From: Methylocystis silviterrae
GTDB lineage: Bacteria > Pseudomonadota > Alphaproteobacteria > Rhizobiales > Beijerinckiaceae
NCBI RefSeq assembly: GCF_013350005.1
Contig: NZ_JABVWW010000009.1
Location: forward strand, 1 to 64,000
DNA: 64,000 nucleotides
Reading direction: 5' to 3'
Below, piece by piece: positions 21,941 to 52,667 of this stretch (within the stretch, counting starts at the first letter, position 1; the number at the start of each line of letters is the position of its first letter). The translations under genes and the position numbers were made by a program. Under the pieces are notes generated by a model, which saw only the letters and a program-made list of their open reading frames with translations, did no database searches and had not been told where the DNA came from.

Positions 21941-22019
21941 CCTTGCGCTCTCTTCGAACGGTCCGCCGCGTGATCGAATTCTGTTGGCTTCGGCGCCGCA
22001 CGGTGACTGCGTGCGAGTC

Positions 22020-22216
22020 GCTTTGTTTACAACTTAAGCAATAAAGTACTAGCTACTTTGGAATGAGAATAAATACAAGTAATATATGGTACATATGTCA
22101 CATTGCGCTTAAAATACTTCCGAAATGACGGCTACATAATTGATGAAAAAAAATATTCGAGCTATGTGCAGCATACAAAGCGTGGCGTCGCACTGCACAA
22201 TAGTAGAGGCGGAAGA
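22020..22216 (+). promoter_or_regulatory. AT-rich promoter/leader of the siderophore receptor operon
   Basis: This stretch is far richer in A and T than the rest of the window. It holds two symmetric elements: AAAGTA-CTAGC-TACTTT at 22043-22059 and ACATATGT at 22091-22098. Between them lies GGAATGAGAATAAATAC, loosely similar to the A/T-rich repeats bound by Fur-like regulators. An iron-responsive operator (Fur, Irr or RirA) is expected for such an operon, but none can be named with confidence from the sequence alone. Confidence 0.45.
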
Positions 22217-24649
22217 ATGACCAAGAAACATTCCAGATTTGCCTGCCTGGACATCTCGGTAATCGGGAAAAAATCCCTGCTTGTATGTAGTCTCGGCGCG
22301 CCGGTCGTGATCGCGCTCGAAGTCGCGTCGGCCCTGGCGCAGAACGCCTCTCAAACATTGCCTCCGGTGACCGTGGATGCGCCGCGCGAAAAGCCGCAAA
22401 CAAAACCGCGGCAACAAACGCAACGCCCAGTCGCATCGAGCGCGCGGGCGAGCAGCGTTCATCCGAGCGGCCCGAGACCGCACGTGGCTTCGACGCCGCA
22501 CGGCGCGACTTCCGCCGCTCCGCAGGTCGGTCCTGCGCTGCTCTCCGGCGCAAGCGGCGTTGCGCCGTCTCCGCCAACGGGCGAAATCGGCAATCTTCCG
22601 CCCGCGTATGCCGGAGGCGAGGTCGCTCGCGGCGCCCGCCTCGGCATGCTCGGCAATCGCGATTTCATGGATACGCCGTTCAATGTGACGAGCTACACGT
22701 CGGCGCTGATCGAAAACCAGCAAGCGCGCACCTTGCAGCAGGTCTTGGAGAACGATCCGTCGGTCCGCATGACCACGTCGGCCGGGCACATTCGCGAGAA
22801 TTTCAGAATTCGCGGCTTCCCCGTGCTGGGCAGCGAACTCGCGCTCAACGGCATGTATGGTCTCGCGCCCGACGGCCATGTGCCGACCGAATTCCTGGAG
22901 CGCGTCGAAGTGCTCAAGGGACCCGGTGCGCTGCTCAACGGCATGGCGCCTTTCGGCGCGGTCGGCGGCTCGATTAATCTCGTCACCAAACATGCCGGCG
23001 ACGCGCCGATCACCAGCGTCAGCACGGATTACACATCCAGTTCTCAGTTCGGCACGCATATCGATGTCGGGCGACGCGGCGGCGATCACAATCAATTCGG
23101 CGTTCGCTACAACGGCGTTTACCGAAGCGGAGGCACTGCGCTCGACGAGCAGTGGAAGGTGCGGGGCCTGAACGCGCTGGCGCTCGATTTCCGGGAGGAG
23201 CGCATCAGGCTGTCGATTGACGCTTATCACAGTCAGGAAATCTTCAAGAACGGCAGCGCGCTCATGGCGAGCTTCTCCGGCATTGGCGTGGCCGCGGCGC
23301 CAAGCGCAACCAAGAATCTGTTTGTCGGCTCCAACGCGCGGTTCGAGAACAAGGCGATTGAAGCGCGCGCCGAGCTGGACATCGCCGAGAATGTCACGGT
23401 TTTTGGCGGAATCGGCTTTTTGGACAGCCGGAACTTCGGCTTCACCAACGGAACTCAGGCGACAGGCGTAAACCTGCTCGGCAACTACTCCGGAGCCCGA
23501 ATCGTCAATCTGCGCGGCTATACCAATTCGCTGTCGACGCAGGGCGGCATTCGCGGCCAGTTGGACACGGGACCGCTGCGCCATCAATTCGTGCTGAGCG
23601 CCTCGGCGCTAAAATTCAGCCAAAGCTCCGAATTCGGATTTATCTCGCCTTACAGCTCCAACATTTACGTGCCCGTCGTGCCGCCTCAGGCGCCTCCTCC
23701 GCCGGTCGTTCCGAATACGCCGTTCCGTCTCGGACAAGCCTATTTCGCGACCGATCCGAGAAAGACCGGAGAAACCTATCTGGCGAGCCTCGCCTTCGCC
23801 GACACGATTTCGGCTTTCGACGAACGCATCCAGCTCATCGGCGGTCTGCGCAGCCAGCGGGTGATGACCAAGACGTTCCAGGCCAATACGGGCATCGAGA
23901 CGAACGCCTATGACAGCCATCGTCTCTCGCCGGCCTTTGCCCTGATCGTCAAGCCATTCGACAAGCGCCTCTCGCTTTACGCCAATTATATCGAAGGGCT
24001 CACGCAAGGTTTGCGCGTCACCAACCCACTGTCGACCAATTACAACGAGTCGTTTGCACCCTTCGTCTCCAAGCAGATCGAGACCGGCGCGAAGCTCGAT
24101 TTGGGCATTCTCGCCAATACGCTGAGCTTTTACGAAATCACCCAACCGACGCTTGCGACCGTGACCACGGGAGGCCGCGTATCTTACAAACCCGTCCAGC
24201 AGCGCAACCAGGGCATCGAGTGGAACGTCTTCGGCGAGCCGATCCCGGGCGTCCGTGTGCTCGGCGGCGTCTCTTATATGATCGGCGTCATCACGCAGAG
24301 CGCGGACGGAAAGACCACCGGTAAAAACGCCTTCGGCATACCAAGATGGCAGGCGAACTTCTACGGCGAATGGGACCTTCCCTATCTGGTCGGGGTGACC
24401 GTGGAAGGCCGCGTCATCTATACGAGCGCCCTCTATGTCGACTCGTTGAACTACTACCGAATTCCTGAATGGGCGCGCTTCGACGCAGGCGCTCGCTACA
24501 CCACGAAGATCTACGGCACAGACATGACGCTGCGGGCGAATGTGAACAATCTGTTCAACCACAGCTACTGGTCTGGAGCGTTTAACGACGGTTTCGCCAC
24601 GCTCGATGCGCCGCGCACCGTCCTGCTGTCGGCAACCTTCAACTTCTAA
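22217..24649 (+). CDS. TonB-dependent ferric-siderophore receptor
   Basis: 810 residues from the ATG at 22217, with GGAAGA just upstream; the frame stays open to 22103 but that part is AT-rich leader. A signal peptide ends near ALEVASALAQ. A Pro/Gln-rich spacer follows, then the plug domain (about 150-300: DTPFNVTSYTSALIENQQARTL, RGFPV, ERVEVLKGPGALLNG, GGSINLVTK) and a 22-strand barrel ending in the outer-membrane signature LSATFNF. No N-terminal signalling domain precedes the plug, so it is not a FecA-type transducer. It heads the plus-strand siderophore locus and presumably imports the siderophore made by the NRPS downstream. Ligand assignment rests on context. Confidence 0.9.
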   Translation: MTKKHSRFACLDISVIGKKSLLVCSLGAPVVIALEVASALAQNASQTLPPVTVDAPREKPQTKPRQQTQRPVASSARASSVHPSGPRPHVASTPHGATSAAPQVGPALLSGASGVAPSPPTGEIGNLPPAYAGGEVARGARLGMLGNRDFMDTPFNVTSYTSALIENQQARTLQQVLENDPSVRMTTSAGHIRENFRIRGFPVLGSELALNGMYGLAPDGHVPTEFLERVEVLKGPGALLNGMAPFGAVGGSINLVTKHAGDAPITSVSTDYTSSSQFGTHIDVGRRGGDHNQFGVRYNGVYRSGGTALDEQWKVRGLNALALDFREERIRLSIDAYHSQEIFKNGSALMASFSGIGVAAAPSATKNLFVGSNARFENKAIEARAELDIAENVTVFGGIGFLDSRNFGFTNGTQATGVNLLGNYSGARIVNLRGYTNSLSTQGGIRGQLDTGPLRHQFVLSASALKFSQSSEFGFISPYSSNIYVPVVPPQAPPPPVVPNTPFRLGQAYFATDPRKTGETYLASLAFADTISAFDERIQLIGGLRSQRVMTKTFQANTGIETNAYDSHRLSPAFALIVKPFDKRLSLYANYIEGLTQGLRVTNPLSTNYNESFAPFVSKQIETGAKLDLGILANTLSFYEITQPTLATVTTGGRVSYKPVQQRNQGIEWNVFGEPIPGVRVLGGVSYMIGVITQSADGKTTGKNAFGIPRWQANFYGEWDLPYLVGVTVEGRVIYTSALYVDSLNYYRIPEWARFDAGARYTTKIYGTDMTLRANVNNLFNHSYWSGAFNDGFATLDAPRTVLLSATFNF

Positions 24650-24664
24650 GGATAGGAGCGGACG

Positions 24665-24952
24665 TTGAACCTCTCGCCCGCAGCTATTCAATTCGCCGCC
24701 TGCGTGGCCATCGCGATGGGCGCCGCCAGCCTCTATCTCGGCGCGCAGAACCAGCGCTGGCTGTCGCGGCCGCTGCCTGGGTTGTGGAGCGGCGTCGCTG
24801 GCGCGGCGCTGCTGCTTCTTGGCGTCTTTCTGTGGAGTCAGACGGTTCAGCTTTCAACTGCGATTTTCGGGACGCTCGCCCTGGTCATGCTTCTGTTCAT
24901 CGCTTTCCCGTGTCTGGGGGCGCTGCGAACCTTCGTCAGGAACGCGCCATGA
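24665..24952 (+). CDS. Small three-helix membrane protein of iron-uptake operons (DUF3325-like)
   Basis: 95 residues from a TTG at 24665, preceded by AGGAGCGG. Three hydrophobic helices are visible (near 6-24, 40-58 and 63-82), joined by short basic loops. Small membrane proteins of this kind (DUF3325-type, by position and appearance) commonly follow TonB receptors and precede PepSY membrane proteins in proteobacterial iron-uptake operons. The stop codon overlaps the next start (ATGA at 24949-24952). The biochemical role is unknown; it may help assemble or stabilise the PepSY protein. Family naming is tentative, the reading frame secure. Confidence 0.7.
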   Translation: MNLSPAAIQFAACVAIAMGAASLYLGAQNQRWLSRPLPGLWSGVAGAALLLLGVFLWSQTVQLSTAIFGTLALVMLLFIAFPCLGALRTFVRNAP

Positions 24953-25233
24953 GTCAGATCCGACGCGATTGGGTCAGCAAAACCTCGGCCGGCGCCATTC
25001 TGGGCTTCAGCCTTGCGATCGCGCTTGCGGGCCTCTTTGCGTGGCTCAGTCCCGGCGGACTGGCGACTCCAAATAAATTTCAGCTCGTGATGTGGCTGAT
25101 CGCGCCGATCTGGCTGACGACGCTGAGCATGTGTTTCTTCTTTTCGAGCGGCATGCGCGCCTGGCTCTGGCTGGGCGGCGTAAATCTACTGGCATACGCC
25201 GGCCTATTCGCCTGCCGCCTTCTCCTTCTCTAA
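24949..25233 (+). CDS. Small membrane protein of iron-uptake operons (DUF3649-like)
   Basis: 94 residues, three predicted helices (about 13-33, 45-63 and 71-92), a short basic N-terminus (SQIRRDWVSKTSAG) and a Cys in the second helix (LSMCFFFSSG). Position and size match the DUF3649 iron-uptake proteins that sit between DUF3325 and PepSY genes. It is coupled to the preceding gene by an ATGA overlap and followed after 15 bases by the PepSY gene. Its role is likely shared with those neighbours in handling ferric siderophore at the inner membrane, but no activity can be read from the sequence. Confidence 0.68.
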   Translation: MSQIRRDWVSKTSAGAILGFSLAIALAGLFAWLSPGGLATPNKFQLVMWLIAPIWLTTLSMCFFFSSGMRAWLWLGGVNLLAYAGLFACRLLLL

Positions 25234-25248
25234 CCGGGACAACGCACG

Positions 25249-26850
25249 ATGCGCAGCGACGTTGTTCGACTCTATAAGGTTGTTCATACGTGGACAGGCA
25301 TCACCGCCGGGATGTTTCTGTTCATCGCCTTCTACGCCGGCTCCATCACGGTGTTTGCCGAGCCGCTCGCGCGCTGGGTTTCATCCCCCGCTCCGGTCCG
25401 CCTCACCGCCCTTGCCCGATCGGATGAATTGATCGCGCACACGCTTGCCGCACGGCCTGACGCAGCCAAGGAATTCACGCTCCATTTGGGCGAAACCGAA
25501 GATCTTTGGGCGCGCCTCACATGGCGGAAAGGCAAGGACGACAGGACGCCCTGGTCGGCGGAGCTCTCTCCCGAAGGCGACTTGCGCCTGGCGCAGTCAT
25601 ATCGCTCGAGTCTTGCCGACTTCGTCGACAACATTCACCGAACCGCGGGCATTCCAGGCGCCAATGACATCGGCGAGACCATCATGGGCGTCGTGAGCGC
25701 CGTTTATGCCGTCGCGCTTGTGTCGGGCCTGATCATCGTTCTGCCTTCGCTCGTTAAGGATCTATTCGCCCTGCGGATAACCCCCAATCTCAAGCGCATG
25801 TGGCTCGACGCGCATAATGTCGTGGGCGTCGTCAGCCTGCCGTTCCACATCGTCATCGCGCTGAGCGCGGTCGTTTTCTGCCTGCACGAGCCCTTGTACG
25901 ACGCGCTCGACTACGTCGTCTATGACGGCCGTCTGAAGTCGATCATGGCCGCGAGCAACCCCTTCAACTCTATCAAGAAGGACGAGCGACCCGCGCCAAT
26001 GCTGCCCGTCAACACGCTCCTTGAGCGGGTGAAGGCGGCGTCGCCGAGTTTCGTCCCCACCGAGATGCGTTACCGAAGCGCTGGGCTTCGTGGCGCCTCG
26101 GTTCAGGTTTGGGGCTATGACACTCGCTATATGACGAGAGGAAAGGGGTTTGCGGTCATCAGTCCGGTCACCGGCGAGATTGCCAACACGGACTATCTGC
26201 CCGGCAGAGAGGGGACTTGGACGGGCGTCGTGGCGACGTTCTTCGCCCTGCATTTCGCCACCTTCGGCGGCGATGTCGTGCGTGTCTGCTATTTTCTGCT
26301 CGGCATCGCGGGCGCCTTCCTCTTCTACTCGGGCAATTTGCTTTGGATTGAGTCTCGCCGGCGAACTGAACGGCGAAACGGCGGGCCCGTAAATCAGAAG
26401 ACATCGACGCGGCTGATGTCCGCCGCCACGGTCGGCGTTTGTTTCGGCGCGATCTGCGCGATCTCCATCACGATCGTGGCGGCGAAATGGTTGAACGGCC
26501 GCGTCGCGAACATCGATGTGTGGCACAATGGCGTTTATTACGCCGTCTTCCTTGCGAGCGTCCTTTGGTCGTTTCTCAGGGGAGCGGCCGCGGCTGGCGT
26601 TGAGCTTCTCTGGCTTGCCGCGATAGCCGCCGCAGCAATTCCTTTCACCTCACTGTTCAGTTGGGCATCGCCTGCGCTCGGCATGCAAGGCTCGGCGAGC
26701 ATGGCCGCGCTCGGCGTCGACCTCGTCGCGCTTTCCGCCGCCCTATGCTTCGTCTGGATGGCGCGCTCCGCAGCTCATCGCGTGCAATATGGGCCTGCAG
26801 ACAGTGTTTGGGCCGCGTCTCACCGGCAATTGCAGGAGGCGGCGCGATGA
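25249..26850 (+). CDS. PepSY-associated transmembrane protein (putative ferric-siderophore reductase)
   Basis: 533 residues with the PepSY_TM layout: an N-terminal helix (VVHTWTGITAGMFLFIAFYAG), a periplasmic region, paired helices carrying conserved His residues (MWLDAHNVVGVVSLPFHIVIAL; later FFALHFATFGGD), then three or more extra helices at the C-terminus (about 400-520). The His in HTWTG, DAHN, PFH and LHF are spaced as in di-haem membrane reductases such as FsrB and FoxB. These proteins are thought to reduce ferric siderophore in the periplasm or at the inner membrane. The stop overlaps the Fes start. No binding-protein-dependent importer is present in the locus, which makes a reductive route more likely here. 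Confidence 0.78.
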   Translation: MRSDVVRLYKVVHTWTGITAGMFLFIAFYAGSITVFAEPLARWVSSPAPVRLTALARSDELIAHTLAARPDAAKEFTLHLGETEDLWARLTWRKGKDDRTPWSAELSPEGDLRLAQSYRSSLADFVDNIHRTAGIPGANDIGETIMGVVSAVYAVALVSGLIIVLPSLVKDLFALRITPNLKRMWLDAHNVVGVVSLPFHIVIALSAVVFCLHEPLYDALDYVVYDGRLKSIMAASNPFNSIKKDERPAPMLPVNTLLERVKAASPSFVPTEMRYRSAGLRGASVQVWGYDTRYMTRGKGFAVISPVTGEIANTDYLPGREGTWTGVVATFFALHFATFGGDVVRVCYFLLGIAGAFLFYSGNLLWIESRRRTERRNGGPVNQKTSTRLMSAATVGVCFGAICAISITIVAAKWLNGRVANIDVWHNGVYYAVFLASVLWSFLRGAAAAGVELLWLAAIAAAAIPFTSLFSWASPALGMQGSASMAALGVDLVALSAALCFVWMARSAAHRVQYGPADSVWAASHRQLQEAAR

Positions 26851-28211
26851 CGACGCCTTGCCAGCAATTGTTGAAAGGCCGTTTCGGCCGAGACGTGGGT
26901 TCCGATCGCTGGTGGCGTCGGGTCGCCATCGAAGGCTGTCCAATTGTCCAGGCGATAGGCGGGGACCGGGCGCGCGTCTTGTTCTTGTGGCGTGATCCTG
27001 AAGGCGATGCGACGACCTCTAGGACTCGACGCGTCTATATCGATATCTGCTCAGTCACCGATCATCATAGCAATGAACCCGCCTCTTTGGAGCGGATCGC
27101 CGGAACGGATGTCTGGCATTGGTCCTTCGAGGTAGAGGCTGAATGGCGCGGAAGCTATTGCTTCATTCCTCTCGACGACAACCATCTCCATGGCGCCCGC
27201 GGCCCTGACACCGAAATTGCGCCGAAGGATTGGTGGCGCGCAGCGCTGAAGTTCGCGCAGACCGATTCGTTGAACCCCAACCTTTGCCATGTCGGCCTGC
27301 GCGGACAGCCGTTATCCGGAGCACATCTTCCACAGGCGCCGTTGCAAACGGCATGGCGAGACGTCGACCGCAACAGCCGACCCGCGGCCGATCAGAGCCG
27401 CCTGCATCGAATGGAATGGAACAGCGCTCGGCTGCGCAACAGCCGCCGTGTTTGGATTTATCGCACGGGCGCGACGCCTAAAGAAAGCAAGCTTCCTCTC
27501 GTCGTGCTCCTGGACGGCCAATATTGGGCCGAAGCCATGCCGGTCTTCGCAGCCCTGGACCATGCCACGCACGCCGACTTGCTCCCGCCCAGCCTCTATG
27601 TGCTCATCGATTCGCTCAACGCAGACATGCGAAGTCGCGAACTCGCGTGTGACGAGGCCTTTCTGGAGGCGGTTCAGCGGGAGCTTTTGCCAATCGTGGC
27701 AGGTCTCGCGCCGTATGGCCACGATCCGAGCAAGACTGTCATCGCTGGACAGAGCTTTGGCGGACTTGCGGCGCTTTTCGCCGGCCTTCGCTCGCCAGAG
27801 TGTTTTGGTTGCGTGCTCAGCCAATCTGGCTCGTTTTGGTGGCCGGGAGGTTATGCGCGGGAGGATCTGCGGCCGCACGTTCCTGATACTCTCGGCGATG
27901 CGCGAGACGTCGTCGCCGATTTGATCGAGAGCAGCAAAAGCGGCGCTTCCCGTCTTCGCGTCTTCCTTGAGGCTGGAAGCTTCGAGAAAATCATTCGCGT
28001 CGCCAGCGACCGCGTTCATCGGACTCTCATCGACGCAGGGCACGACGCCCACTATCGCGTCTATTCGGGCGGGCACGATCCGCTTTGCTGGCGTGGCGGA
28101 TTGCTCGACGGACTGTCCTTTCTGCTCGCCGACCATCGTGCCGCGCCAGCTGGCGCTCCGGCGTCTCGCTCGGACGCCTCAAGATTAGCAATTACAAACG
28201 CGACGGAGTGA
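26847..28211 (+). CDS. fes: Enterochelin esterase-like hydrolase (Fes family)
   Basis: 454 residues from the ATG at 26847 (GCAGGAGG upstream, ATGA overlap with the PepSY gene). The N-terminal 180 residues form the Fes beta-sandwich region, and the rest is an alpha/beta hydrolase with the nucleophile Ser303 in AGQSFGGLAAL and the catalytic His in SGGHDPLCWR. Fes cuts the serine-ester backbone of enterobactin-type siderophores in the cytoplasm to release iron. Its presence implies that the product of the downstream NRPS is an oligoester of serine, in agreement with the serine code of its second adenylation domain. There is no signal peptide, so it acts after import. Confidence 0.88.
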   Translation: MTTPCQQLLKGRFGRDVGSDRWWRRVAIEGCPIVQAIGGDRARVLFLWRDPEGDATTSRTRRVYIDICSVTDHHSNEPASLERIAGTDVWHWSFEVEAEWRGSYCFIPLDDNHLHGARGPDTEIAPKDWWRAALKFAQTDSLNPNLCHVGLRGQPLSGAHLPQAPLQTAWRDVDRNSRPAADQSRLHRMEWNSARLRNSRRVWIYRTGATPKESKLPLVVLLDGQYWAEAMPVFAALDHATHADLLPPSLYVLIDSLNADMRSRELACDEAFLEAVQRELLPIVAGLAPYGHDPSKTVIAGQSFGGLAALFAGLRSPECFGCVLSQSGSFWWPGGYAREDLRPHVPDTLGDARDVVADLIESSKSGASRLRVFLEAGSFEKIIRVASDRVHRTLIDAGHDAHYRVYSGGHDPLCWRGGLLDGLSFLLADHRAAPAGAPASRSDASRLAITNATE

Positions 28212-28215
28212 ATGT

Positions 28216-28440
28216 GTGAATGACGCGCAGCCAAACCCATTCGACGACGAAAGCCTTACGTTCCTCGTTCTGGTCAATTCCCAGGGCCAGCACAGTCTGT
28301 GGCCGACATTCGCCCCACAGCCCGCGGGCTGGCGACGGCTCTTCGGTCCCAGCGATCGGAACGACTGCGTAAATTTCGTCGATGAATATTGGACCGACAT
28401 GCGCCCGCAGTCGCTTCGTGACGCTTCTCGTCCGCGCTAA
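28216..28440 (+). CDS. MbtH-like NRPS chaperone
   Basis: 74 residues from a GTG at 28216. All hallmarks are present: NPFDDE near the N-terminus, FLVLVNSQGQHSLWP, PAGWRRLFGP, CVNFVDEYWTDMRP and SL. MbtH-family proteins bind NRPS adenylation domains and are needed for their solubility or activity. It lies 44 bases before the NRPS gene and should bind one or both of its adenylation domains. Confidence 0.93.
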   Translation: MNDAQPNPFDDESLTFLVLVNSQGQHSLWPTFAPQPAGWRRLFGPSDRNDCVNFVDEYWTDMRPQSLRDASRPR

Positions 28441-28484
28441 CCGAATGACTTCCTAGTCAGCCTTTCTTTCGAGGGGAACGACAA

Positions 28485-34400: not shown

Positions 34401-35684
34401 CTGCTGGAGCAGCCCGGCGTGGCGCAGGCCGCAGTCATAGCAAGAGCGACGGGCGAACGAGTCGGCGGCGGCGCCGATGAGCGTCAGTTGATCGGCTATG
34501 TCATTCCATCAAGCGATACGGAGCTTGATGGCGAGGCGTTGCGCAGCGCGCTTTTGCGTCGTCTCCCAGGCCATATGACTCCAACGGCTGTCGTCTGCCT
34601 GAAGGAATTTCCACTGAACGCCAGCGGCAAATTGGACAGGAAGGCGCTGCCAGCGCCTGGAAACGCGCTTCATCGCCAAGGCCGCAAGCCGCTTCCGGGA
34701 ATTGAAACGACTCTTTCAGAAATATTCGCGCGTGTTCTTGGAATCGACGAGGTCAACGCCGACGATGACTTCTTCGCGCTCGGCGGACATTCCTTGCTCG
34801 CCATGCAACTCGCCGCGGAGTTGGAGACGGTGTTCAAAACGCCTGTCTCCGTCGGCGAAGTCATCGTCAGTTCGAGCGTCGAGCGGCTTGCACGCACGCT
34901 CTTCGACGAACAGGCGGGCGAAGAGCGCAAGGCCGGCTTCGGCGAAGTGCTGCACCTGCGATCGGGCGCGGAAGCGCCGCTGTTCTGCATTCATCCCGCG
35001 TCTGGCTTTTCGTGGCAGTTCAGCGTCCTCACCCGCTATCTCCAAAGCGACTGCCCGGTGATCGGACTCCAGTCGCCGCGCCCCAATGGCGTTATCGCGA
35101 TCTGTGATTCAATGGATGAGGTTTGCAGGAGACATCTGGAGACGATCCGAAAAATTCAGCCTTGCGGGCCTTATCGGCTGCTCGGCTATTCGCTGGGCGG
35201 CGTGGTGGCGCAGGCGATCGCCGCGCGCCTGGTTGAAGAAGGCGACGTGGTCGACTTTCTCGGATTGCTCGACACCTATCCGCCAGAAATTCAAGACTGG
35301 AGCAGGCCGCCAACGGAAGACGAAGAGAGAGAGATAGAGAAGGAGCGCGCGCTGTTCATGAACGCCTCCAAGGATGCCCTCGACTCGGCCTTGGCGAAGG
35401 AGAAGGCCGAGATGTTCGGCAATATCATGCGGAATTACGAAGATTCAGTTCGTCTTCTCTCCACCGCGAAGACAGCGCGCTATCCCGGTGCGGCAACGCT
35501 ATTCGTAGCGACGCGGACCTTGCCGCCGGGAATGGACGTCCAGGAGACCTGGCGTCCCTATGTGGGCCAGCTCAACGTCGTCGACCTGGACTGCGCCCAC
35601 ACGGACATTGTCTCTCCGCACTCCTTGCAGGCTTTGGGGCCAATCCTCAATGGCTTGCTGCGCGACAGAGAGGCGAGGAGCTAG
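28485..35684 (+). CDS. Dimodular siderophore NRPS (C-A-T-C-A-T-TE), EntF-like
   Basis: 2399 residues from a GTG at 28485 (GAGGGG upstream). Order: C1 (about 15-440, HHMMVDG at 156), A1 (470-980, TSGSTGKPKG at 626), T1 (Ser1033 in LGGDSIS), C2 (1065-1510, HHLIGDG at 1245), A2 (1530-2040, TSGSTGRPKG at 1698), T2 (Ser2103 in LGGHSLL), thioesterase (2140-2399, Ser2236 in GYSLGG, likely His in CAHTD). C1 resembles EntF's C domain and should accept DHB from the EntB carrier. By alignment with EntF, A2 reads D-V-W-H-F-S-L-V-D-K, identical to EntF and thus serine. A1 reads D-V-G-N-F-I-V-V-E-K, which I cannot assign; its acidic Glu hints at a cationic amino acid. There is no epimerase domain. The TE probably oligomerises and cyclises (DHB-X-Ser) units. 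Confidence 0.93.
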   Translation: MLLAPPLRPSSPIALELPLIAAQPGIWMGDQVSPTRNAFIVAQYVELKGAVDVESFRLAIRIGLSEADTVHARFIEAEGRLSQIIPQRRNAAESPDLDVVDVSEEPDPEAAALAFMRADLAADLPLNGDALLYRHVLIRLGETSIGERWFWYQRYHHMMVDGFSFTAIARRIAEIYTTLRRRKPLGDSPFTSFSEVVEEYQSYEGSKAQEADRRFWLDHAQNLPTPIALSQPSARTPQAGAVSLPLRRRISLPPDVMTVFETQGAAVRVSGVEVAMAAVFAYLHRMSGATRLTVGMPFMRRMGSIALFAAGPVVNVLPVQLSIEPSMLLSEAATALALELRAVRRRQRYEAEQLRRDLGLVGSDRSLYGPMLNLKMFDYRLDFDGVVGVTHQLASGPVEDVEIDLYVDDGRLTIDLVANCDRYDKQDLELHAKRLACLVERLAEDPELAIGAAPLLTEGERALIAAANDTAKDVPRLTLCDMLAAQAAKTPDAIALVDADHTFTYQEVRRQVSRRAQMLADAGVVAEDHVAVALPRSVHLSLAIMAVLEAGAAYLPLDINYPDERLAFMVEDAAPRLIITCENLRSRFEKMGRVLIFDELTPDIEEHSFAPNTALTTGHPAYIIYTSGSTGKPKGVVVSHGAIVNLLYWLQDEYSLTADDVMLQKTPCSFDVSVGEFFGPLTCGARLVMAPEEVDRDPEALLQVIRDYRITTMNFVPSLLAAFVAGVRATANAARDAMSLRAVFCIGEALSKELAEAFENLIHAPLHNVYGPTEATVEVSYQPAFGQALASARGPGVPIGRPLWNTGLRILDARLRHAPIGVAGDLYLTGAQLAQGYWRRASLTASRFVADPEANGERMYRTGDIARWLPDGSVDYLGRSDDQLKIRGQRIELGEIESALRDRPSVGQAAVVARILGGGEAAALASDARQLIGYVTPAMPGDALDGEALRAGLGKRLPAYMTPVAIMVLEEFPLSANGKLDRKALPDPSEAAQSKSRQPLPGRETMLAELIAGILRVDHVGADDDFFLLGGDSISAIGLCAALRRRGALLRPRDIFECRSVARMAQALESQAPTPSVATLESNEISEAELDALRERYGPIAAVLPALPLQEGLLFHARLGDQASRYNAISRFDIAGPLDVERLKDALETLLRRHPQLAAIFDVQGGAALQILPLLDEGSSLRHWPWKRCSLDACDEEQQFAELDRIEREELDREFLGAEAQERMMAQATLVRLAADRHVLLICSHHLIGDGWSSTIMLRELLGAYAGDALPPLTPDYPTVVRRLASRDPAPARLAWREALQGVAPTLLFEDTKRFGAIHELLLKFRPGFLEELEALRRSRGLTLNTLMQGVWGAFLATMTGRNDVVFGSPMSGRSEAIEGVEAHIGLFTNTLPVRLRLRPDQPLLEQLANIQQRQIRLLEHDGVGLGEIQRLCGVSNLFDTLLVVENYPEDAKLFAADFGGLRCVSARNRGYTHYPLTLMVLPGRELELRLEYREGVKEPERIARRVTRLLEQIVDRPDVPLSAMDFLLPEERDLLVRVNTTKVENHPSTLCELLADQAQCTPDAIALVDGDYALSYREVRWQVTALARNFAAAGVTTGDIVAIALPRSVRLVIALMAAQEAGAAYLPLDTSYPEERLAYMVQDARPRLIVTTRDLQERFEQLGASLVYDELSDGPNEDSLKSVIRPSPEDAAYVIYTSGSTGRPKGVTVSHKAIVNRLRWMQHEYRLSADDVILQKTPSSFDVSVWEFFWPLITGARLVVAPPEAHRDSRELLRLIQDHRVSVIHFVPSMLATFVATAKSQSGHAADSSSLRLVFCSGEALSKELARSYETLFGAPLHNLYGPTEAAVDVTFQQACGVGVDDAAEAASVPIGRPVWNTGLRVLDGWLRPTPVGVAGELYLSGVQLADGYLGRPSLTAGRFVADPFADGEKMYRTGDIVRWLANGTVEYLGRGDDQIKIRGQRIELGEIESVLLEQPGVAQAAVIARATGERVGGGADERQLIGYVIPSSDTELDGEALRSALLRRLPGHMTPTAVVCLKEFPLNASGKLDRKALPAPGNALHRQGRKPLPGIETTLSEIFARVLGIDEVNADDDFFALGGHSLLAMQLAAELETVFKTPVSVGEVIVSSSVERLARTLFDEQAGEERKAGFGEVLHLRSGAEAPLFCIHPASGFSWQFSVLTRYLQSDCPVIGLQSPRPNGVIAICDSMDEVCRRHLETIRKIQPCGPYRLLGYSLGGVVAQAIAARLVEEGDVVDFLGLLDTYPPEIQDWSRPPTEDEEREIEKERALFMNASKDALDSALAKEKAEMFGNIMRNYEDSVRLLSTAKTARYPGAATLFVATRTLPPGMDVQETWRPYVGQLNVVDLDCAHTDIVSPHSLQALGPILNGLLRDREARS

Positions 35685-35686
35685 AG

Positions 35687-37102
35687 ATGGACACTCAGCC
35701 CTCCCCAGAAGCGTCGGAAGAGACGCGCAACGAAGGCCATGCCGTGTCGTCGGGTTCATCTCGTGATCCGGCGGGCGCCGTCGCCAAGAACATCGCCAAG
35801 AAGAAATCTACTCTGCTGTTGGACCTTAGCCTGCTGCGCGACAATGCAGCGTTTCGTACCGTCGTCATCGCTCGAACCCTGTCGGTGTTTTCGCTGGGCA
35901 TGCTGACAGTGGCGGTCCCAGTTCAAATCCAGGAATTGACCGGCTCGCCCATGCAAGTCGGAATTTCCATGGCGCTTGGCGGCGGCGGCGCCTTCGCCGG
36001 GCTGTTGGGGGGCGGCGTGCTTGCGGACCGGTGGGATAGGCGCAAGCTCATCCTCTTTGCGCGATCTGTTTGCGGCCTTGGCTTCGCGGCGCTCGCCGTC
36101 AATGGCTTCAGCTCGTCGCCCTCAGTGCTGGCGATCTATGCGCTGGCGCTGTGGGACGGATTTTTCAGCGCGCTCGGCGTTACTGCGCTGCTCGCCGCAA
36201 CGCCTTTTCTCGTCGGCCGCGAAAATCTTGGCGCTGCCGGCCAGTTCAACATGCTGACGGTTCGCATGGGTGGAATCCTCTCTCCGGCAATCGGCGGGAT
36301 GGTGATCGCGTCTTTCGGCGTGGGGTGGAATTACCTTGCAGCCGCGATCGGCGCGCTGCTGACCGTCGCTCAGCTCATGCGGCTTCCGCCGATGCCTCCC
36401 GCCAGACGCGAACCGCAGCACCCGCTGCGGGCGCTTGGGGCGGGCATAGGCTATCTTTTCGTTAACAGGCTTGTCGGCGCCGTGGTGGCGGTGGGGGCGC
36501 TTGTTAGTCTCGGCGGCGGCGTTCGCATTCTCATGCCGGCGCTTGCCGAGGACGTGTACCGCGTCGGGCCGTCGGCGGTGGGGATGATGTATGCCGCTGC
36601 GCCGCTGGGTGCGACGGTGGCGGCCTTAACGGGCGGTTGGCTCGGCGGCTTTGCTCGTTCCGGAGCGCTGCTGCTTGCGAGCGGCGCGGCAGCTTTCGTC
36701 GCGCTCGGTTCGCTCGGATTTATCAGCGATCCTGTCGTCGCTTTTGTGGCTCTCGCGAGCTTTGGCTATTTGAGCTCGATCGCCTCGCTGCTGCAGTTCA
36801 CTCTCGTCCAACGCCACACGCCGGAACATTTGTTGGGCCGGGTCAATGGTCTATGGGCCGCCCAGGCGGTCACCGGCGACGCTTTTGGCGCGCTCGCGCT
36901 TGGCGGCGTCAGTCGCGTTTTTCCGCTGACGTCAGCCATTCTCATTTTCAGCCTTGTCGCGCTTCTTTCAAGCGGGGCGATGGCGATGGGATTTCGTTCG
37001 CTTCGTTTCGCCTCGTCAAAGAAAAGCGAGGATTCGCCTTCGACCGCCGCCGACAAGAGCGAATGGCCGCAGCCTCAACTCTTGAAGAGCAAGAAGGCTT
37101 GA
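35687..37102 (+). CDS. EntS-like MFS siderophore exporter
   Basis: 471 residues; GAGGAG lies six bases before the ATG and the gene starts two bases after the NRPS stop. A polar N-terminal 55 residues precede about twelve helices. EntS-like features are VVIARTLSVFSLGMLTVAVPVQ, the loop LADRWDRRK, and QFTLVQRHTPEHLLGRVNGLW in the second half. A charged tail follows the last helix. EntS-type transporters secrete enterobactin across the inner membrane. Its place directly after the NRPS and before DHB synthesis genes makes it the likely exporter of the product. The Lys-rich extensions at both ends are longer than in E. coli EntS. Confidence 0.87.
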   Translation: MDTQPSPEASEETRNEGHAVSSGSSRDPAGAVAKNIAKKKSTLLLDLSLLRDNAAFRTVVIARTLSVFSLGMLTVAVPVQIQELTGSPMQVGISMALGGGGAFAGLLGGGVLADRWDRRKLILFARSVCGLGFAALAVNGFSSSPSVLAIYALALWDGFFSALGVTALLAATPFLVGRENLGAAGQFNMLTVRMGGILSPAIGGMVIASFGVGWNYLAAAIGALLTVAQLMRLPPMPPARREPQHPLRALGAGIGYLFVNRLVGAVVAVGALVSLGGGVRILMPALAEDVYRVGPSAVGMMYAAAPLGATVAALTGGWLGGFARSGALLLASGAAAFVALGSLGFISDPVVAFVALASFGYLSSIASLLQFTLVQRHTPEHLLGRVNGLWAAQAVTGDAFGALALGGVSRVFPLTSAILIFSLVALLSSGAMAMGFRSLRFASSKKSEDSPSTAADKSEWPQPQLLKSKKA

Positions 37103-37163
37103 TCCGGAGGCCGCGCATGGAACGCCTTTGATGATGAAATTCTATAGCAAAAGAGGTGCGACA

Positions 37164-38354
37164 ATGAATGCAGTTAGTCTTCCTCCATCACATTCAAGCG
37201 TTGAAGCGAACCCCACCTTCTTGTTCTCCTCGCCGCACCGCAGCATCAATGCGTTCGGCGTCGCCGAGAAAATTTGTCTTTCGGCGTGCGGCGCGGCGCA
37301 TTCGGATAGTTTCCTGCAGACGGCCGTGCAGGGCGCAATCAATCGGGCGCGGCAGGCCGGACAGGCGAATCCCATCGTCGCGGGCGCCATTCCCTTCGAC
37401 ATTCGGCAGCCCTGCTCATTGTTCGTGCCAATGAGCTATACGGCTTTCGCGAGAGAGACGCTGATAGTCGAAGAGCGACGCTCGGAGCACGCGCCCACAG
37501 TGCTCGGCATGCGCAGCCTCCCCGACAAGGACGCCTTTAAAGACGCCGTCACGCGCGCGATCACAAGCTTTCGCGCCGGGAAAATGTCGAAAGCGGTTCT
37601 ATCCCGCATCCTCGAAATCGAACTCGCGCAACCGGTCGACGTCGCAGCGATCTTGAACGCCTTGGTGAAGCAAAATCCCAGCGGCTATCATTTCAAGGCG
37701 CCTTTGGGCGATGGCGCGATATTGCTTGGCGCAAGTCCAGAGCTCCTGATCCGAAAGGACGGAGCCGCCATTCGCTCTAATCCCCTGGCCGGTTCGGCCA
37801 AACGCAGATCGGACCCGGAAGAGGATCAGCTGGCGAGCCGCACGCTGTTGCAGTCGAACAAGGATAATTTCGAGCACAGGCTCGTCGTGGATGAAATACA
37901 GGAAGCGCTGGAGCCCGTATGCAAAGCTCTAACGACGCCCACTGAGCCAGCGCTCATGAACACGTCGACGATGTGGCATCTCTCGACATTGATCACCGGC
38001 GAGCTGGCGAACCACCACACGTCGGCGCTTCAACTTGCCTGCCGGCTGCATCCAACGCCAGCGGTCTGCGGTTATCCAACCGCTGAGTCGCGGTCGCTGA
38101 TTAGCGCTCTGGAGCCATTCGACCGCGGGGTGTTCAGCGGCGCCGTCGGATGGTGCGATTCAGCGGGCGATGGCGAATGGGCGGTGGCGATAAGGTGCGG
38201 AACGGTTCACGACAAAGCCATTCGACTCTTTGCCGGCGCCGGCATCGTCGAAGCTTCCGATCCGGAATCAGAATGGGCGGAAACTGAAGCCAAGCTTGGC
38301 ACGATGCTGCGCGCCTTCGGAATAGAAACCGAGGAGCGCCCCGCATGCCGATAG
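37164..38354 (+). CDS. entC: Isochorismate synthase
   Basis: 396 residues from the ATG at 37164 (AGAGGTG upstream; an ATG at 37128 gives 12 extra residues). It converts chorismate to isochorismate with Mg2+, the first step to DHB. Visible family blocks: KAVLSRILEIEL, GASPELLIRK, NPLAGSAKRRSDPEEDQ, VVDEIQEALEPVC, LHPTPAVCGYP and FSGAVGWCDSAGDGEWAVAIR with the metal-binding acidic residues. Length is that of EntC. Its end overlaps the start of entE by ten bases, so translation is coupled. Confidence 0.92.
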   Translation: MNAVSLPPSHSSVEANPTFLFSSPHRSINAFGVAEKICLSACGAAHSDSFLQTAVQGAINRARQAGQANPIVAGAIPFDIRQPCSLFVPMSYTAFARETLIVEERRSEHAPTVLGMRSLPDKDAFKDAVTRAITSFRAGKMSKAVLSRILEIELAQPVDVAAILNALVKQNPSGYHFKAPLGDGAILLGASPELLIRKDGAAIRSNPLAGSAKRRSDPEEDQLASRTLLQSNKDNFEHRLVVDEIQEALEPVCKALTTPTEPALMNTSTMWHLSTLITGELANHHTSALQLACRLHPTPAVCGYPTAESRSLISALEPFDRGVFSGAVGWCDSAGDGEWAVAIRCGTVHDKAIRLFAGAGIVEASDPESEWAETEAKLGTMLRAFGIETEERPACR

Positions 38355-39967
38355 AGTTCACGCCCTGGCCCAAAGCTTTTGCCCGCAGATATCACGACAA
38401 AGGCTATTGGCGCGGCGAGCCGCTGACAGAGATTTTGCAATACGTTTGTCGTCGTCGTCCCGACGGCGTCGCGCTGATTTGCGGTGACCGACATCTCACT
38501 TACGCTCAGCTCGACGCCAAATCGTCGCGACTGGCGTCGAGCCTTGCACGCCGCGGAATCGCGCAAGGCGATACGGCGCTGGTTCAACTCCCGAACATCG
38601 CCGAGTTTTACATCGTCTTTTTTGCGCTGCTGGAAATGGGAGTGGCGCCGGTCAACGCGCTGTTCAGCCACGACAGGCAGGAGATGACCGCCTATGCGCA
38701 GCAGCTTCGGCCCAAACTTCTCATCGCGTCCGCCGAACATCGTCTCTTCGCGGATGGCGTCTATGTCACCGACTTGCGGAGCTTCGCGCCGACATTGAGC
38801 GTCATCGCCATCCACGGACGAACTGAATATGCTGAAAATCTTGAGTCGCTGTGGGAATGTGACTCAGACGGCGCGGAGGACGAACCGCGCCCTTCCGCGG
38901 CTGATCAGGTGGCGTTCTTCCAGTTGTCGGGCGGCAGCACCGGCGTTCCCAAGCTCATTCCGCGCACCCATGACGATTACTACTACAGCGTGCGGCGAAG
39001 CGCGGAAATCTGCCGCCTCACATCCGAGAGCCGCTATCTGTGCGCGCTTCCAGCCCCCCATAATTTTCCACTGAGTTCGCCCGGCGCGCTCGGCGTCTTT
39101 CACGCCGGTGGAACGGTGGTGATGGCGCGAAATCCGAGCGCGGATCTCTGCTTCGATCTCATTCGTCGTCACAAGGTGAACTTCACGGCCATCGTGCCGA
39201 CGGTTGCTTCGTTATGGCTTGACGCCGCCGCCAACGACTCTCGCGAAGCGCCGAATCTCACAGTGATGCAGGTCGGCGGCGCGCGACTCAGCGAGACGGT
39301 CGCCCGCCAAATTGTCACGACCTTCGGTTGTCGGCTGCAGCAGGTTTTTGGCATGGCGGAAGGCTTGGTGAACTACACGGGTCTTGACGACGATCCCGAG
39401 CGCATTTTTACGACTCAAGGGCGGCCAATGAGTCCCGATGATGAGCTGAAAGTCGTCGATGCAGATGGCGAAGAGGTCGCCGCAGGCGAAGTCGGAGAGC
39501 TGCTGGCTCGTGGTCCATACACGATCCGGGGCTATTATCGCTCGCCAGAACATAACGCTCGCGCCTTCGATGAAGACGGATTCTATCACACGGGCGATCT
39601 CGTCGAGATGACGGCGGACGGATATGTGAAAGTCGTAGGTCGCAAGAAGGATCAGATCAACCGCGGCGGCGAGAAGATTCCTGCCGAAGAGATCGAAAAT
39701 TTGCTGCTGCAGCACCGGGCGGTCGTGCACGCGGCGCTCATTTCCATGCCCGATTCCCTGATGGGAGAGAGAAGCTGCGCTTATATTGTCGCGAACGATG
39801 CCGCGTTAAGGCCGATCGCTTTGCGAAAGCATCTGCGCAGCCAGGGAATTGCGGAATTCAAGCTCCCCGATCGTTTTGAATTCATCGATCAGATGCCGCT
39901 TACCGCCTTCGGTAAGGTCGACAAGCAAACGCTGCGCGATGACATCCAGGCAAAGCTCAACGTCTAA
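38345..39967 (+). CDS. entE: 2,3-dihydroxybenzoate-AMP ligase
   Basis: 540 residues, the stand-alone aryl-adenylating enzyme of catecholate siderophore pathways. It activates DHB with ATP and loads it onto the aryl carrier domain of EntB. Seen: the P-loop-like QLSGGSTGVPKLIPRTH, the pocket segment around LPAPHNFPLSSPGALG, FGMAEGLVNYT, YRSPEHNARAFDEDGFYHTGD and the catalytic Lys in TAFGKVDKQ. The HNFPLS context is as in DHB/salicylate activators. It overlaps entC and is followed after 19 bases by entB. Confidence 0.93.
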   Translation: MPIEFTPWPKAFARRYHDKGYWRGEPLTEILQYVCRRRPDGVALICGDRHLTYAQLDAKSSRLASSLARRGIAQGDTALVQLPNIAEFYIVFFALLEMGVAPVNALFSHDRQEMTAYAQQLRPKLLIASAEHRLFADGVYVTDLRSFAPTLSVIAIHGRTEYAENLESLWECDSDGAEDEPRPSAADQVAFFQLSGGSTGVPKLIPRTHDDYYYSVRRSAEICRLTSESRYLCALPAPHNFPLSSPGALGVFHAGGTVVMARNPSADLCFDLIRRHKVNFTAIVPTVASLWLDAAANDSREAPNLTVMQVGGARLSETVARQIVTTFGCRLQQVFGMAEGLVNYTGLDDDPERIFTTQGRPMSPDDELKVVDADGEEVAAGEVGELLARGPYTIRGYYRSPEHNARAFDEDGFYHTGDLVEMTADGYVKVVGRKKDQINRGGEKIPAEEIENLLLQHRAVVHAALISMPDSLMGERSCAYIVANDAALRPIALRKHLRSQGIAEFKLPDRFEFIDQMPLTAFGKVDKQTLRDDIQAKLNV

Positions 39968-39986
39968 AAGCAAACAGGAATTGACC

Positions 39987-40874
39987 ATGGCCATACAATC
40001 CCTTGCATCCTACGCAATGCCGGGCCCGGATTCCTTCCGATTAAACAAAGTCAGTTGGAGTTTTGCGCCCGAGCGCGCAGCGCTGCTGATCCACGACATG
40101 CAAGACTATTTCGTCGGCTTCTACGGCGAGGAAAGTCCGCTCGTCGATCAGCTCATCTCAAATATTCGAAGGCTGCGCGCCTTTTTCAGGGCCCACGGCG
40201 CCCCGGTGATCTATACGGCCCAGCCCATTGAACAGAGCGACGAAGATCGCGGCTTGCTGAATGATATGTGGGGATCTGGTCTGAACGCGCAACCGCACCG
40301 ACGCAAAATTGTTGAGCCTCTATTGCCGGACGCTGGGGATACAGTGCTGACGAAGTGGCGTTATAGCGCGTTCAAGCGCTCGCGATTGGCCGAGATGATG
40401 AAGGACATGGGCAGAGATCAACTGACGATCTGCGGCGTCTATGGCCACATCGGTTGTCTGACGACGGCGCTCGACGCGTTCATGCATGACATCAAGCCTT
40501 TCATGATCGCCGACGCCATCGGCGATTTTTCGCTCGAGGATCATCTCATGACTCTGAACTATGTCGCCGGACGCTGCGGCATGGTGGTCGGCGTTGACGA
40601 CATGATCGCCACCCGAAACGCACATTCTGCTCCGCTGACCAGAGAAGACCTCAAGAAACAGCTCTTGCCGGCGCTCGATGTCGAGGAATCAGAATTCGAC
40701 CCCAACGAAAACCTTATCGATTACGGCCTCGACTCGGTGCGAGTCATGATGCTGGTCACCAAATGGCGCAAGCTCGGCATAGATGTGGGTTTTGACGAGC
40801 TGGCGAAAAAGCCGACCTTGAATGGCTGGTGGGAGATCATCGATCGCCGGCTCGCCGCGGTCGTCTCCGCGTGA
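39987..40874 (+). CDS. entB: Isochorismatase with aryl carrier domain
   Basis: 295 residues (ATG at 39987, CAGGAA upstream). Residues 1-205 are isochorismatase: LLIHDMQDYFVGFY, WRYSAFKRSRLAEMMKD and ICGVYGHIGCLTTALDAFM; it splits isochorismate to 2,3-dihydro-DHB and pyruvate. Residues 215-290 are an aryl carrier protein, with phosphopantetheine Ser250 in YGLDSVRVMML. EntE loads DHB here, and the first C domain of the NRPS takes it. The phosphopantetheinyl transferase needed to activate Ser250 and the NRPS carriers is not in the window. Confidence 0.93.
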   Translation: MAIQSLASYAMPGPDSFRLNKVSWSFAPERAALLIHDMQDYFVGFYGEESPLVDQLISNIRRLRAFFRAHGAPVIYTAQPIEQSDEDRGLLNDMWGSGLNAQPHRRKIVEPLLPDAGDTVLTKWRYSAFKRSRLAEMMKDMGRDQLTICGVYGHIGCLTTALDAFMHDIKPFMIADAIGDFSLEDHLMTLNYVAGRCGMVVGVDDMIATRNAHSAPLTREDLKKQLLPALDVEESEFDPNENLIDYGLDSVRVMMLVTKWRKLGIDVGFDELAKKPTLNGWWEIIDRRLAAVVSA

Positions 40875-40891
40875 CATCTCGGCGGCTGCGC

Positions 40892-41638
40892 ATGGATTTT
40901 TCAGGAAAGCGGATCTTGGTCACGGGCGCCGGCCAGGGAATTGGCTATGCGACAGCCGCCCAATTTGCAGCGCTCGGCGGCGACGTTGTCGGGCTGGACA
41001 AGACATTTGCGGCCTCGAGCTATCCTTTCGCGACCGTGCGCCTCGACGTCAGCGAGCGCGATCAGGTGCAAGAGACCTGCCGAGCCTTGCTGAAAGAGCG
41101 TCCGAGATTGGATGTGCTGGTCAGCGCCGCGGGCGTGCTGCGTCTCGGTCTGACGGAAGAGTTGAGCCTTGATGATTGGGCCGCGTGTATGAACGTCAAT
41201 GCGTCGGGCCCTTTCCACCTGTTTCAGCAGACCATCCCGCAGTTCAAACGGCAGCGCTCGGGCGCGATCGTCAGCGTCGGCTCCAACGCCGCGCATACGC
41301 CGCGCATGCTGATGAGCGCCTATTGCGCCTCGAAGGCGGCGCTGACCAGTCTGACCCACTGCGTGGGCTTGGAGCTCGCGCCTTATGGCGTGAGGTGCAA
41401 TCTCGTCTCCCCAGGCTCCACGGACACCGCCATGCAGCGGTCCATGTGGCGTTCGGCAGACGCAGAGAAGCAAGTGATCGCCGGAGACCTTGGGGCCTTC
41501 AAATTGGGAATTCCGCTGGGAAAAATCGCTGCCCCAGAGGAGATCGCAAGCGCCGTCGTGTTTCTTGCGTCGGATCTCGCCAGCCATATCACGCTTCAGG
41601 ACCTTGTCGTGGACGGCGGCGCGACGCTTGCAGCTTAA
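40892..41638 (+). CDS. entA: 2,3-dihydro-2,3-dihydroxybenzoate dehydrogenase
   Basis: 248-residue short-chain dehydrogenase. ATG at 40892, 18 bases after entB; the frame is open further upstream but overlaps entB. The NAD site TGAGQGIG is near residue 10, the catalytic Ser lies in VSVGSNA, Tyr and Lys in YCASKAA, and the EntA-type end is ASDLASHITLQDLVVDGGATL. It oxidises 2,3-dihydro-DHB to DHB with NAD+, completing the precursor. It is the last gene of the locus. A fragment of a second copy lies at 21860-21940. Confidence 0.93.
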   Translation: MDFSGKRILVTGAGQGIGYATAAQFAALGGDVVGLDKTFAASSYPFATVRLDVSERDQVQETCRALLKERPRLDVLVSAAGVLRLGLTEELSLDDWAACMNVNASGPFHLFQQTIPQFKRQRSGAIVSVGSNAAHTPRMLMSAYCASKAALTSLTHCVGLELAPYGVRCNLVSPGSTDTAMQRSMWRSADAEKQVIAGDLGAFKLGIPLGKIAAPEEIASAVVFLASDLASHITLQDLVVDGGATLAA

Positions 41639-51748: not shown

Positions 51749-51883
51749 GTGAAGACCTTACTCACGGAGCGCGGCTGGGAGCCGTTTCGCTTCCAGCGGG
51801 ACGTTTGGCGCGAAATGGCGAAGGGACGCTCAAATTGGGATCTGCCTGACGCCCGGGTTCCGCTACGGGTGGAACCCAGCTAA
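51749..51883 (+). pseudogene. N-terminal stub of the ligase-associated DEXH helicase
   Basis: From a GTG at 51749 the frame reads VKTLLTERGWEPFRFQRDVW, REMAKGRS and then stops after 44 codons. The first 28 residues match the conserved start of Lhr-like ligase-associated helicases (xxRGWxPFxFQxxVWxxxxxGxSG), just before where the Walker A motif should come. The remaining 800 or so residues are absent and the sequence runs into eutC on the other strand. Position directly after the ligase gene supports the identification. The original start codon may have been further upstream. Confidence 0.65.
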
Positions 51884-52665
51884 CTCTTGGCGTCGATCGC
51901 GCGCAGTTCTCCCGATGGAAGCGTATCGGCTTCGTCTTTGAGGTCGACGCCGGTCAGCTGGCGTCGGCGCGCCTCATGGCAAAGATAAACCAGCTTGCGC
52001 GCGGCGTCGGCATAGGGAAGGCCCTGCGGGCGGATATTCGAGAGGCAGTTACGCTCGGCGTCGGTGCGGCCGACGCGCGGCGCAAATGTGAGATAGACGC
52101 CCATGCTGTCGGGCGAGGAAAGGCCCGGTCGTTCGCCGATGAAAACCGCCACAAGCCTTGCCCCAAGCGTTTCGCCAATATCGTCGCCGAGGGCCACGCG
52201 CCCCTGTTCGGCGAGAACGATCGGCGCGATTTTCCACGATGTTCGATCGAGAGATTGCAGCGCTCTTTCGAGCACTGGAATTGCATGCCGGGCGATTGCG
52301 CGGGCGGATAGTCCTTCGGCGATGACAAATGAAAGGTCGTAATCGCCCGCGAGGGCTTTGAGATGCTGGCGGGAATCGTCGTCGAGTTTTCGGCCAAGGT
52401 CGGGACGCAGCAGAAAGCTTCGCCGATCGCGGGCGGCACTCTTCACGCGGACGGCCGTCAGCCCGCGCGAGGTCAACTCGTCGAAGAGCCGGTCGGCGTC
52501 GAGTCGCTCTTCCACCGCATCCCGCGCTTCGGCATGCGCCAGCTGGAAATCGAGAGTAGCGCGCGTCGTCAGCGCTGCTCCGGCGCGTGGCAGGAAAATT
52601 CTTGCCGGCGTCGCCGAACGCAGCATCGACATCTTATCAAGAGGCGTCGGGCGATCGTCGGCCAT
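51880..52665 (-). CDS. eutC: Ethanolamine ammonia-lyase small subunit
   Basis: About 261 residues from the ATG at 52665, which directly follows the eutB stop (TGA at 52670-52668). Family blocks: TPARIFLPRAGAALTT, FQLAHAEARDAVE, DLSFVIAEGLSARAI, VFIGERPGLSSPDSMGVYLTF and ERNCLSNIRPQGLPY. EutC binds adenosylcobalamin together with EutB and the pair converts ethanolamine to acetaldehyde and ammonia. Its stop overlaps the stub of the DNA-repair helicase on the other strand. No EutA reactivase, permease or microcompartment genes are seen nearby. Confidence 0.92.
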   Translation of the reverse strand: MADDRPTPLDKMSMLRSATPARIFLPRAGAALTTRATLDFQLAHAEARDAVEERLDADRLFDELTSRGLTAVRVKSAARDRRSFLLRPDLGRKLDDDSRQHLKALAGDYDLSFVIAEGLSARAIARHAIPVLERALQSLDRTSWKIAPIVLAEQGRVALGDDIGETLGARLVAVFIGERPGLSSPDSMGVYLTFAPRVGRTDAERNCLSNIRPQGLPYADAARKLVYLCHEARRRQLTGVDLKDEADTLPSGELRAIDAKS

Positions 52666-52667
52666 CC

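Follow-up and report, generated by a model that had tools for sequence, protein, structure and literature searches.

A catecholate siderophore locus with a dimodular synthetase in Methylocystis, very probably that of methylocystabactin

Gene content of the locus

The DNA analysed here is a stretch of 64 kb from Methylocystis silviterrae (contig NZ_JABVWW010000009.1, positions 1 to 64,000), referred to as the window, and all coordinates are those of the whole stretch. Its forward strand carries, at 22217-41638, a gene array for a catecholate siderophore which consists of a receptor, a small membrane protein, a PepSY protein, Fes, an MbtH-like protein, a nonribosomal peptide synthetase (NRPS), an EntS-like exporter, and EntC, EntE, EntB and EntA. 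We are confident that this locus makes, exports and re-imports a catecholate of the type (DHB-X-Ser)n, where DHB is 2,3-dihydroxybenzoate and X an amino acid. The product is most likely the trimer and very probably methylocystabactin. Gene starts are predicted and correspond to the most plausible ATG or GTG.

22000-22216, + strand: AT-rich conserved leader 5′ of the receptor gene, presumed iron-regulated promoter (block ctttggaatgagaataaata identical in five aligned sequences)
22217-24649, + strand: TonB-dependent siderophore receptor, 810 aa (NCBIfam TIGR01783, 309.3 bits, cut-off 223.5; Pfam Plug and beta-barrel)
24949-25233, + strand: membrane protein of 94 aa between receptor and PepSY genes (recognised by conservation; no Pfam family)
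25249-26850, + strand: PepSY_TM inner-membrane protein, candidate periplasmic ferri-siderophore reductase (PF03929, 173.5 bits)
26847-28211, + strand: Fes, ferric enterochelin esterase (NF007758, 506 bits, cut-off 222)
28216-28440, + strand: MbtH-like protein (PF03621, 82.7 bits)
28485-35684, + strand: dimodular NRPS C-A(X)-T-C-A(Ser)-T-TE, 2399 aa (Pfam, adenylation codes, motifs)
35687-37102, + strand: EntS-type exporter of the major facilitator superfamily (MFS) (NF007792, 519.8 bits, cut-off 324)
37134-38354 (alternative start 37164), + strand: EntC, isochorismate synthase (TIGR00543, 310 bits, cut-off 225)
38345-39967, + strand: EntE, 2,3-dihydroxybenzoate-AMP ligase (NF008192, 864.7 bits, cut-off 783; TIGR02275, 835.2 bits, cut-off 723.55)
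39987-40874, + strand: EntB, isochorismatase with aryl carrier protein (PF00857, 128.1 bits; PF00550, 32.9 bits)
40892-41638, + strand: EntA, 2,3-dihydro-2,3-dihydroxybenzoate dehydrogenase (NF006074, 397.6 bits, cut-off 312)

All genes that had been named in a first-pass annotation were recovered by NCBIfam and Pfam searches, on the forward strand and in the order claimed, while the 94-aa membrane open reading frame (ORF) at 24949-25233 had been overlooked. The claim that the genes are separated by short gaps holds from this small ORF onward, where intergenic gaps are 2-44 bases or genes overlap slightly (by 4 bases in the case of the Fes and PepSY genes), but a gap of 299 bases directly follows the receptor gene. 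EntC is assigned at the level of the isochorismate synthase subfamily only, the equivalog cut-offs of NCBIfam for EntC and DhbC not being passed. The gene order is kept in five of five related loci (L003-L007) and also, with identities of 71-91%, in L067 and L009; the L009 sequence ends before the receptor. This conservation argues against a chance arrangement. The complete pathway to 2,3-DHB (EntC, EntB, EntA) and EntE adjoin the NRPS, as is expected for (DHB-X-Ser)3 synthetases.

The synthetase, its relatives and its product

Pfam resolves the NRPS into two Condensation, two AMP-binding and two PP-binding stretches and one Thioesterase, corresponding to two modules of condensation (C), adenylation (A) and thiolation (T) domains that end in a thioesterase (TE). 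An epimerization (E) domain would appear as an additional Condensation match. Only two such stretches are found by Pfam, and thus the NRPS has no E domain. The motifs are intact (HHxxxDG at 156 and 1245, GGDS/GGHS at 1030 and 2100, GYSLGG of the TE at 2234). The best-scoring relative in the PDB is EntF (5ja1), with separate matches of 476 and 804 bits, and in this comparison the TE and the Ser module are EntF-like. EntF shares the starter C, the Ser-specific A, the T and the TE domain but has one module only. The second A domain has the code DVWHFSLVDK, which is the serine code and is given as such for EntF and TnbF (PMC3795760), so that two modules ending in a TE with a Ser code in the second A domain are present, as in other (DHB-X-Ser)3 synthetases. 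Trees of A and C domains were computed for 25 chosen synthetases (that of the window and 24 others). In the C tree all C2 domains form one clade with support 1.0 while C1 of the window is placed on the opposite side with the C1 domains of EntF; C1 is thus of the EntF starter type and C2 of the type found in the dimodular family. The earlier reading as a dimodular catecholate synthetase of the DHB-X-Ser kind is borne out, with an exact Ser code, two C-A-T modules plus TE, and no E domain.

X is predicted to have L-configuration, mainly because an E domain is missing. The type of C2 is weak evidence in this respect, since C2 of the window joins those of FreF and Brenneria with a support of 0.795 only and since five synthetases of similar length (from Azospirillum, Rhizobium, Ancylobacter, Psychromonas and Shewanella) are found outside this group; among these five, the absence of an E domain was checked (Pfam) for the Azospirillum synthetase (L012), which has none. 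The case of TnbF illustrates that the C2 type can mislead on configuration (PMC3795760).

In the proposed pathway, EntC, EntB and EntA would convert chorismate to 2,3-DHB, which EntE would load onto the carrier domain of EntB. C1 would couple DHB to X bound to T1, and C2 would pass DHB-X on to T2-bound Ser. Three such units would be gathered by the EntF-type TE before release, and we infer that the product is a trimer, which the EntS homologue would export.

Trivanchrobactin and cyclic trichrysobactin had been proposed as relatives by architecture. They do follow the same (DHB-X-Ser)3 logic, but cyclic trichrysobactin contains D-Lys and trivanchrobactin D-Arg, and an E domain, lacking here, is stated for CbsF (PMC8480324). 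The nearest characterised counterpart in architecture is instead FreF from Yersinia frederiksenii ATCC 33641 (L066), the E-less synthetase of frederiksenibactin, in which X is L-Lys (PMC8480324). FreF has the same C-A-T-C-A-T-TE architecture without an E domain (Pfam) and a Ser code, it is 50% identical to the NRPS of the window overall, and MbtH, Fes, an EntS-like MFS protein, EntC, EntE and EntB are found nearby. However, its first A domain belongs to another lineage, with 37% identity and the code DSEDMGFIDK as compared to DVGNFIVVEK in the window. The turnerbactin synthetase from Teredinibacter turnerae is likewise described as E-less and dimodular with an identical Ser code, but its X code is DSDDGGLVDK, and X is L-Orn (PMC3795760).

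Further dimodular synthetases were encountered in Azospirillum doebereinerae (L012), two Ancylobacter and Rhizobium sp. FKL33 (L010, L077, L014). These share the first A code DSLDLGLVDK and, judged by this code, appear to be a separate alphaproteobacterial group. The Azospirillum synthetase might be responsible for compounds resembling spirilobactin. Those from Psychromonas and Shewanella (L032, L078) have the first A codes DTDADCIVYK and DTDATCIVYK, which are distinct from both the Lys-type and the methanotroph codes.

Methylocystabactin is a new triscatecholate siderophore of many methane-oxidizing alphaproteobacteria (PMC13251462); according to this source it was found by DHB labelling, with its primary description in PNAS 2025, 122:e2507323122. 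An older alphaproteobacterial catecholate is spirilobactin from Azospirillum brasilense (1987), for which PMC3795760 reports equimolar DHB, Orn and Ser and a structure that was not solved; it has DHB and Ser in common with the product proposed here and differs by Orn. The first-pass statement that no such compound was known from this type of alphaproteobacterium is therefore outdated, and a described equivalent in a close relative, which that annotation had named as an argument against itself, probably exists in methylocystabactin, cited here at second hand.

The host and its genome agree with this assignment. Two genes of the pMMO/AMO family (particulate methane monooxygenase/ammonia monooxygenase) are present in the genome and in none of 14 control genomes. 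Only two Condensation domains were found in the whole genome, both in the NRPS of the locus, and the only EntE above the cut-off is also encoded there, so that the Condensation and EntE searches detected no second DHB-NRPS locus in this genome. A DHB-based triscatecholate made by an NRPS should thus come from this locus, which has, as is to be expected for that of methylocystabactin, a methane-oxidizing alphaproteobacterial host in which it is the sole DHB-NRPS locus detected.

Full-length orthologues of the NRPS with 84-93% identity occur in Methylocystis rosea SV97 (an alphaproteobacterium of the Methylocystaceae in the NCBI scheme), M. suflitae NLS-7, and Methylocystis sp. H62 and L43, and also in metagenome-assembled genomes assigned to Methylocystis, Methylocystaceae and an unclassified alphaproteobacterium. 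Within the genus, 18 of 39 genomes (nine of which have less than 90% completeness or more than 5% contamination) match the NRPS at E 1e-150; 13 of these carry an orthologue (84-100%), in one case split over two contigs, while five carry other synthetases (33-40%). A homologue with 65-67% identity is present in five of ten genomes from g42, a second genus of this family. This distribution fits the statement that many methane-oxidizing alphaproteobacteria make the compound.

Several points weigh against the assignment. Two thirds of the Methylocystis genomes (26 of 39) show no NRPS orthologue, and in g42 the NRPS is incomplete in two of five cases (TE in genome G157, module 1 in G078). In the literature search, the name methylocystabactin was met only through PMC13251462, the one source from which the compound is known here. 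A text search of the literature returned no match to the code DVGNFIVVEK or its parts and thus gave no confirmation of X. It may be considered whether the locus makes another (DHB-X-Ser)3 product, e.g. one with a different X. The first A code does not resemble the Lys-type codes found in the named relatives, and methylocystabactin itself is known here at second hand only. However, this is the one DHB-NRPS locus found in the genome, and the code is identical in the window, in eight of eight related loci (L003-L009, L067) and in four of four g42 copies, these being the copies in which A codes were read rather than all 13 orthologue-carrying genomes. A single conserved methanotroph compound is the simplest explanation, and we regard a different product as unlikely. 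In our assessment the locus is real, intact and conserved, its architecture is of a known kind, and its product, very probably methylocystabactin, has already been described.

Both incomplete g42 copies look decayed. In G078 (L149) only residues ~1584-2395 of the NRPS were found, downstream of MbtH, with the other operon genes present except fes; in G157 (L130) the TE is incomplete. In the g42 loci L146-L149 the receptor gene is followed by those for the small protein, PepSY, MbtH and the NRPS, and no fes gene intervenes between PepSY and MbtH. Indeed, fes is absent from all four compared g42 loci, while weak matches (28-34%) occur elsewhere in four of the five g42 genomes.

Uptake genes and surroundings

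The ferric siderophore would re-enter the cell via the receptor encoded at the start of the operon, and iron would be freed by the PepSY protein acting as reductase, perhaps assisted by the 94-aa membrane protein, or through hydrolysis by Fes, or by both routes. The receptor has higher scores with models of the hydroxamate receptors FhuA (73.6 bits) and FoxA (ferrioxamine) than with FepA (23.6 bits), all of them below the NCBIfam cut-offs. The 94-aa protein, for which no Pfam family was found, is 87-96% identical in seven of seven loci of the Methylocystis group and 60-61% identical in four of four g42 loci, and Shewanella (L078) encodes a relative with 50% identity next to its PepSY gene. The PepSY protein has no match among PDB sequences at E 0.1; it may well release iron reductively.

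A comparable gene set without ABC transporter genes is hiuABC from Caulobacter crescentus which, with respect to gene content, has an FhuA-related receptor, a PepSY protein and a small membrane protein (PMC13001220). In that system the PepSY protein is compared with the reductase FoxB, and Fe(II) is proposed to be carried by Feo. The Caulobacter system differs in serving hydroxamate xenosiderophores and in the size of HiuC (61 residues, as compared to 94 here). The 94-aa protein may be seen as a positional analogue of HiuC. The pairing of such import genes with a triscatecholate is not new, because a PepSY protein is also listed for the turnerbactin cluster, together with a TonB receptor and two small hypothetical proteins (PMC3795760, Table 3).

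In the first 60 residues of Fes, hydropathy analysis revealed no signal-like hydrophobic segment. A search for FecCD permeases gave no match in the genome, while the same search was positive in 13 of 14 control genomes; FeoB is present (C64:82814-82972). Together, the lack of an evident export signal in Fes and of a FecCD match in the genome mean that passage of the ferric complex to a cytosolic Fes is not accounted for. We considered whether carriers of the locus generally lack FecCD. It was found in none of 13 carriers and in 7 of 26 non-carriers of the genus, a difference that is not significant (Fisher p 0.073), and its presence in all five g42 carriers speaks against such a rule.

It could be argued that the cluster is silent, or that it serves mainly for another metal or for defence against oxidative stress, as two siderophore clusters of Methylosinus trichosporium OB3b respond to copper and carbon source (PMC12811070). 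In that source, the OB3b clusters are not shown to equal the present locus, and one is likened to crochelin. We consider this explanation very unlikely, because receptor, Fes and PepSY genes in an operon-like array with the biosynthesis genes point to iron.

For the leader upstream of the receptor gene, alignment of seven sequences was attempted and five could be aligned, while L003 and L004 were dropped as their start motif could not be located. The block ctttggaatgagaataaata is invariant in the window, L005, L006, L007 and L067. A promoter scan found no sigma-70-like site 5′ of the receptor gene; it reported a total of 4 promoter-like sites, with 4.3 expected. The operon is preceded by a gene for a P-type metal ATPase (19704-21827), an adjacency kept in five of seven loci of the Methylocystis group, with the L009 sequence ending there. 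Elsewhere in the window, EutB and EutC (ethanolamine ammonia-lyase, 51880-54047) are encoded beside a choline/ethanolamine kinase-like gene (54046-55101).

Origin of the first adenylation domain

The first A domain differs from the Ser code at five of ten code positions, and yet it is closest to Ser-specific domains. It shares 60.8% identity with the Ser domain of the same protein and 51-62% with seven further ones, whereas the values for six first A domains of other synthetases are 36-41% (L001, a fragment of the window, and L079 were left out of this comparison). In an IQ-TREE analysis of 45 A domains, it falls on the Ser side of a branch with 100/100 support and adjoins its own A2 at 95/99; FastTree agrees, with values of 1.0 for the Ser side and 0.995 for the clade of A1 and A2. 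By its sequence, the domain can firmly be assigned to the Ser-type lineage, and it is not a member of the cationic (Lys/Arg/Orn) lineage. This bears on membership in the subgroup with a cationic spacer and not on the architecture.

The trees favour an origin of the first A domain as a copy of its own A2, but this cannot be taken as proven. If all 20 first A domains are forced to one side, the cost is 3.27 log-likelihood units (p-AU 0.358 in the approximately unbiased test), and the unrooted tree would, in our reading, then be compatible with a basal position of the methanotroph A1 in the Ser group. The IQ-TREE run also gave a long-branch warning for the junction of the two halves.

The neighbours of the first A domain did not move along with it, since T1 is closer to T1 of FreF (58% identity) than to its own T2 (39%) and since C2 groups with the other C2 domains. 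When the NRPS is compared to FreF in 80-residue windows, identity is 21-41% for windows starting at 401-761 but 28-62% before and 37-75% after. The simplest account would be that a Ser-type A domain was placed inside a dimodular scaffold and that its pocket was altered later. We put forward, tentatively and with more doubt than confidence, that a Ser-type A domain in methanotrophs has replaced a cationic first A domain between a fixed C1 and a fixed T1-C2 and was re-tooled for a spacer outside the Lys/Arg/Orn series.

From the code DVGNFIVVEK we make no prediction of X itself; Glu at position 331 fits a polar or basic X and was not used for this purpose. A reading of W at position 239 in other first A domains was dropped, because the raw motif FDSSWEPLF supports E, D or L. 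A skipped or inactive module 1, with enterobactin or a simple DHB-Ser compound as the product, is highly improbable. The Ser-type lineage of the first A domain makes a monomodular-like origin conceivable, but module 1 has intact C, A and T motifs and retains Asp235 and Lys517, and its altered pocket does not vary among the 12 homologues examined besides the window, which argues for selection for a specific substrate.

In summary, the present analysis probably ties a published methanotroph siderophore to a conserved locus. The part that deserves the attention of specialists is the first A domain, with its Ser-type ancestry and its unmatched code. A DHB-X-Ser architecture need not mean a cationic X, and the locus provides a natural example of an A domain changing between fixed neighbours.

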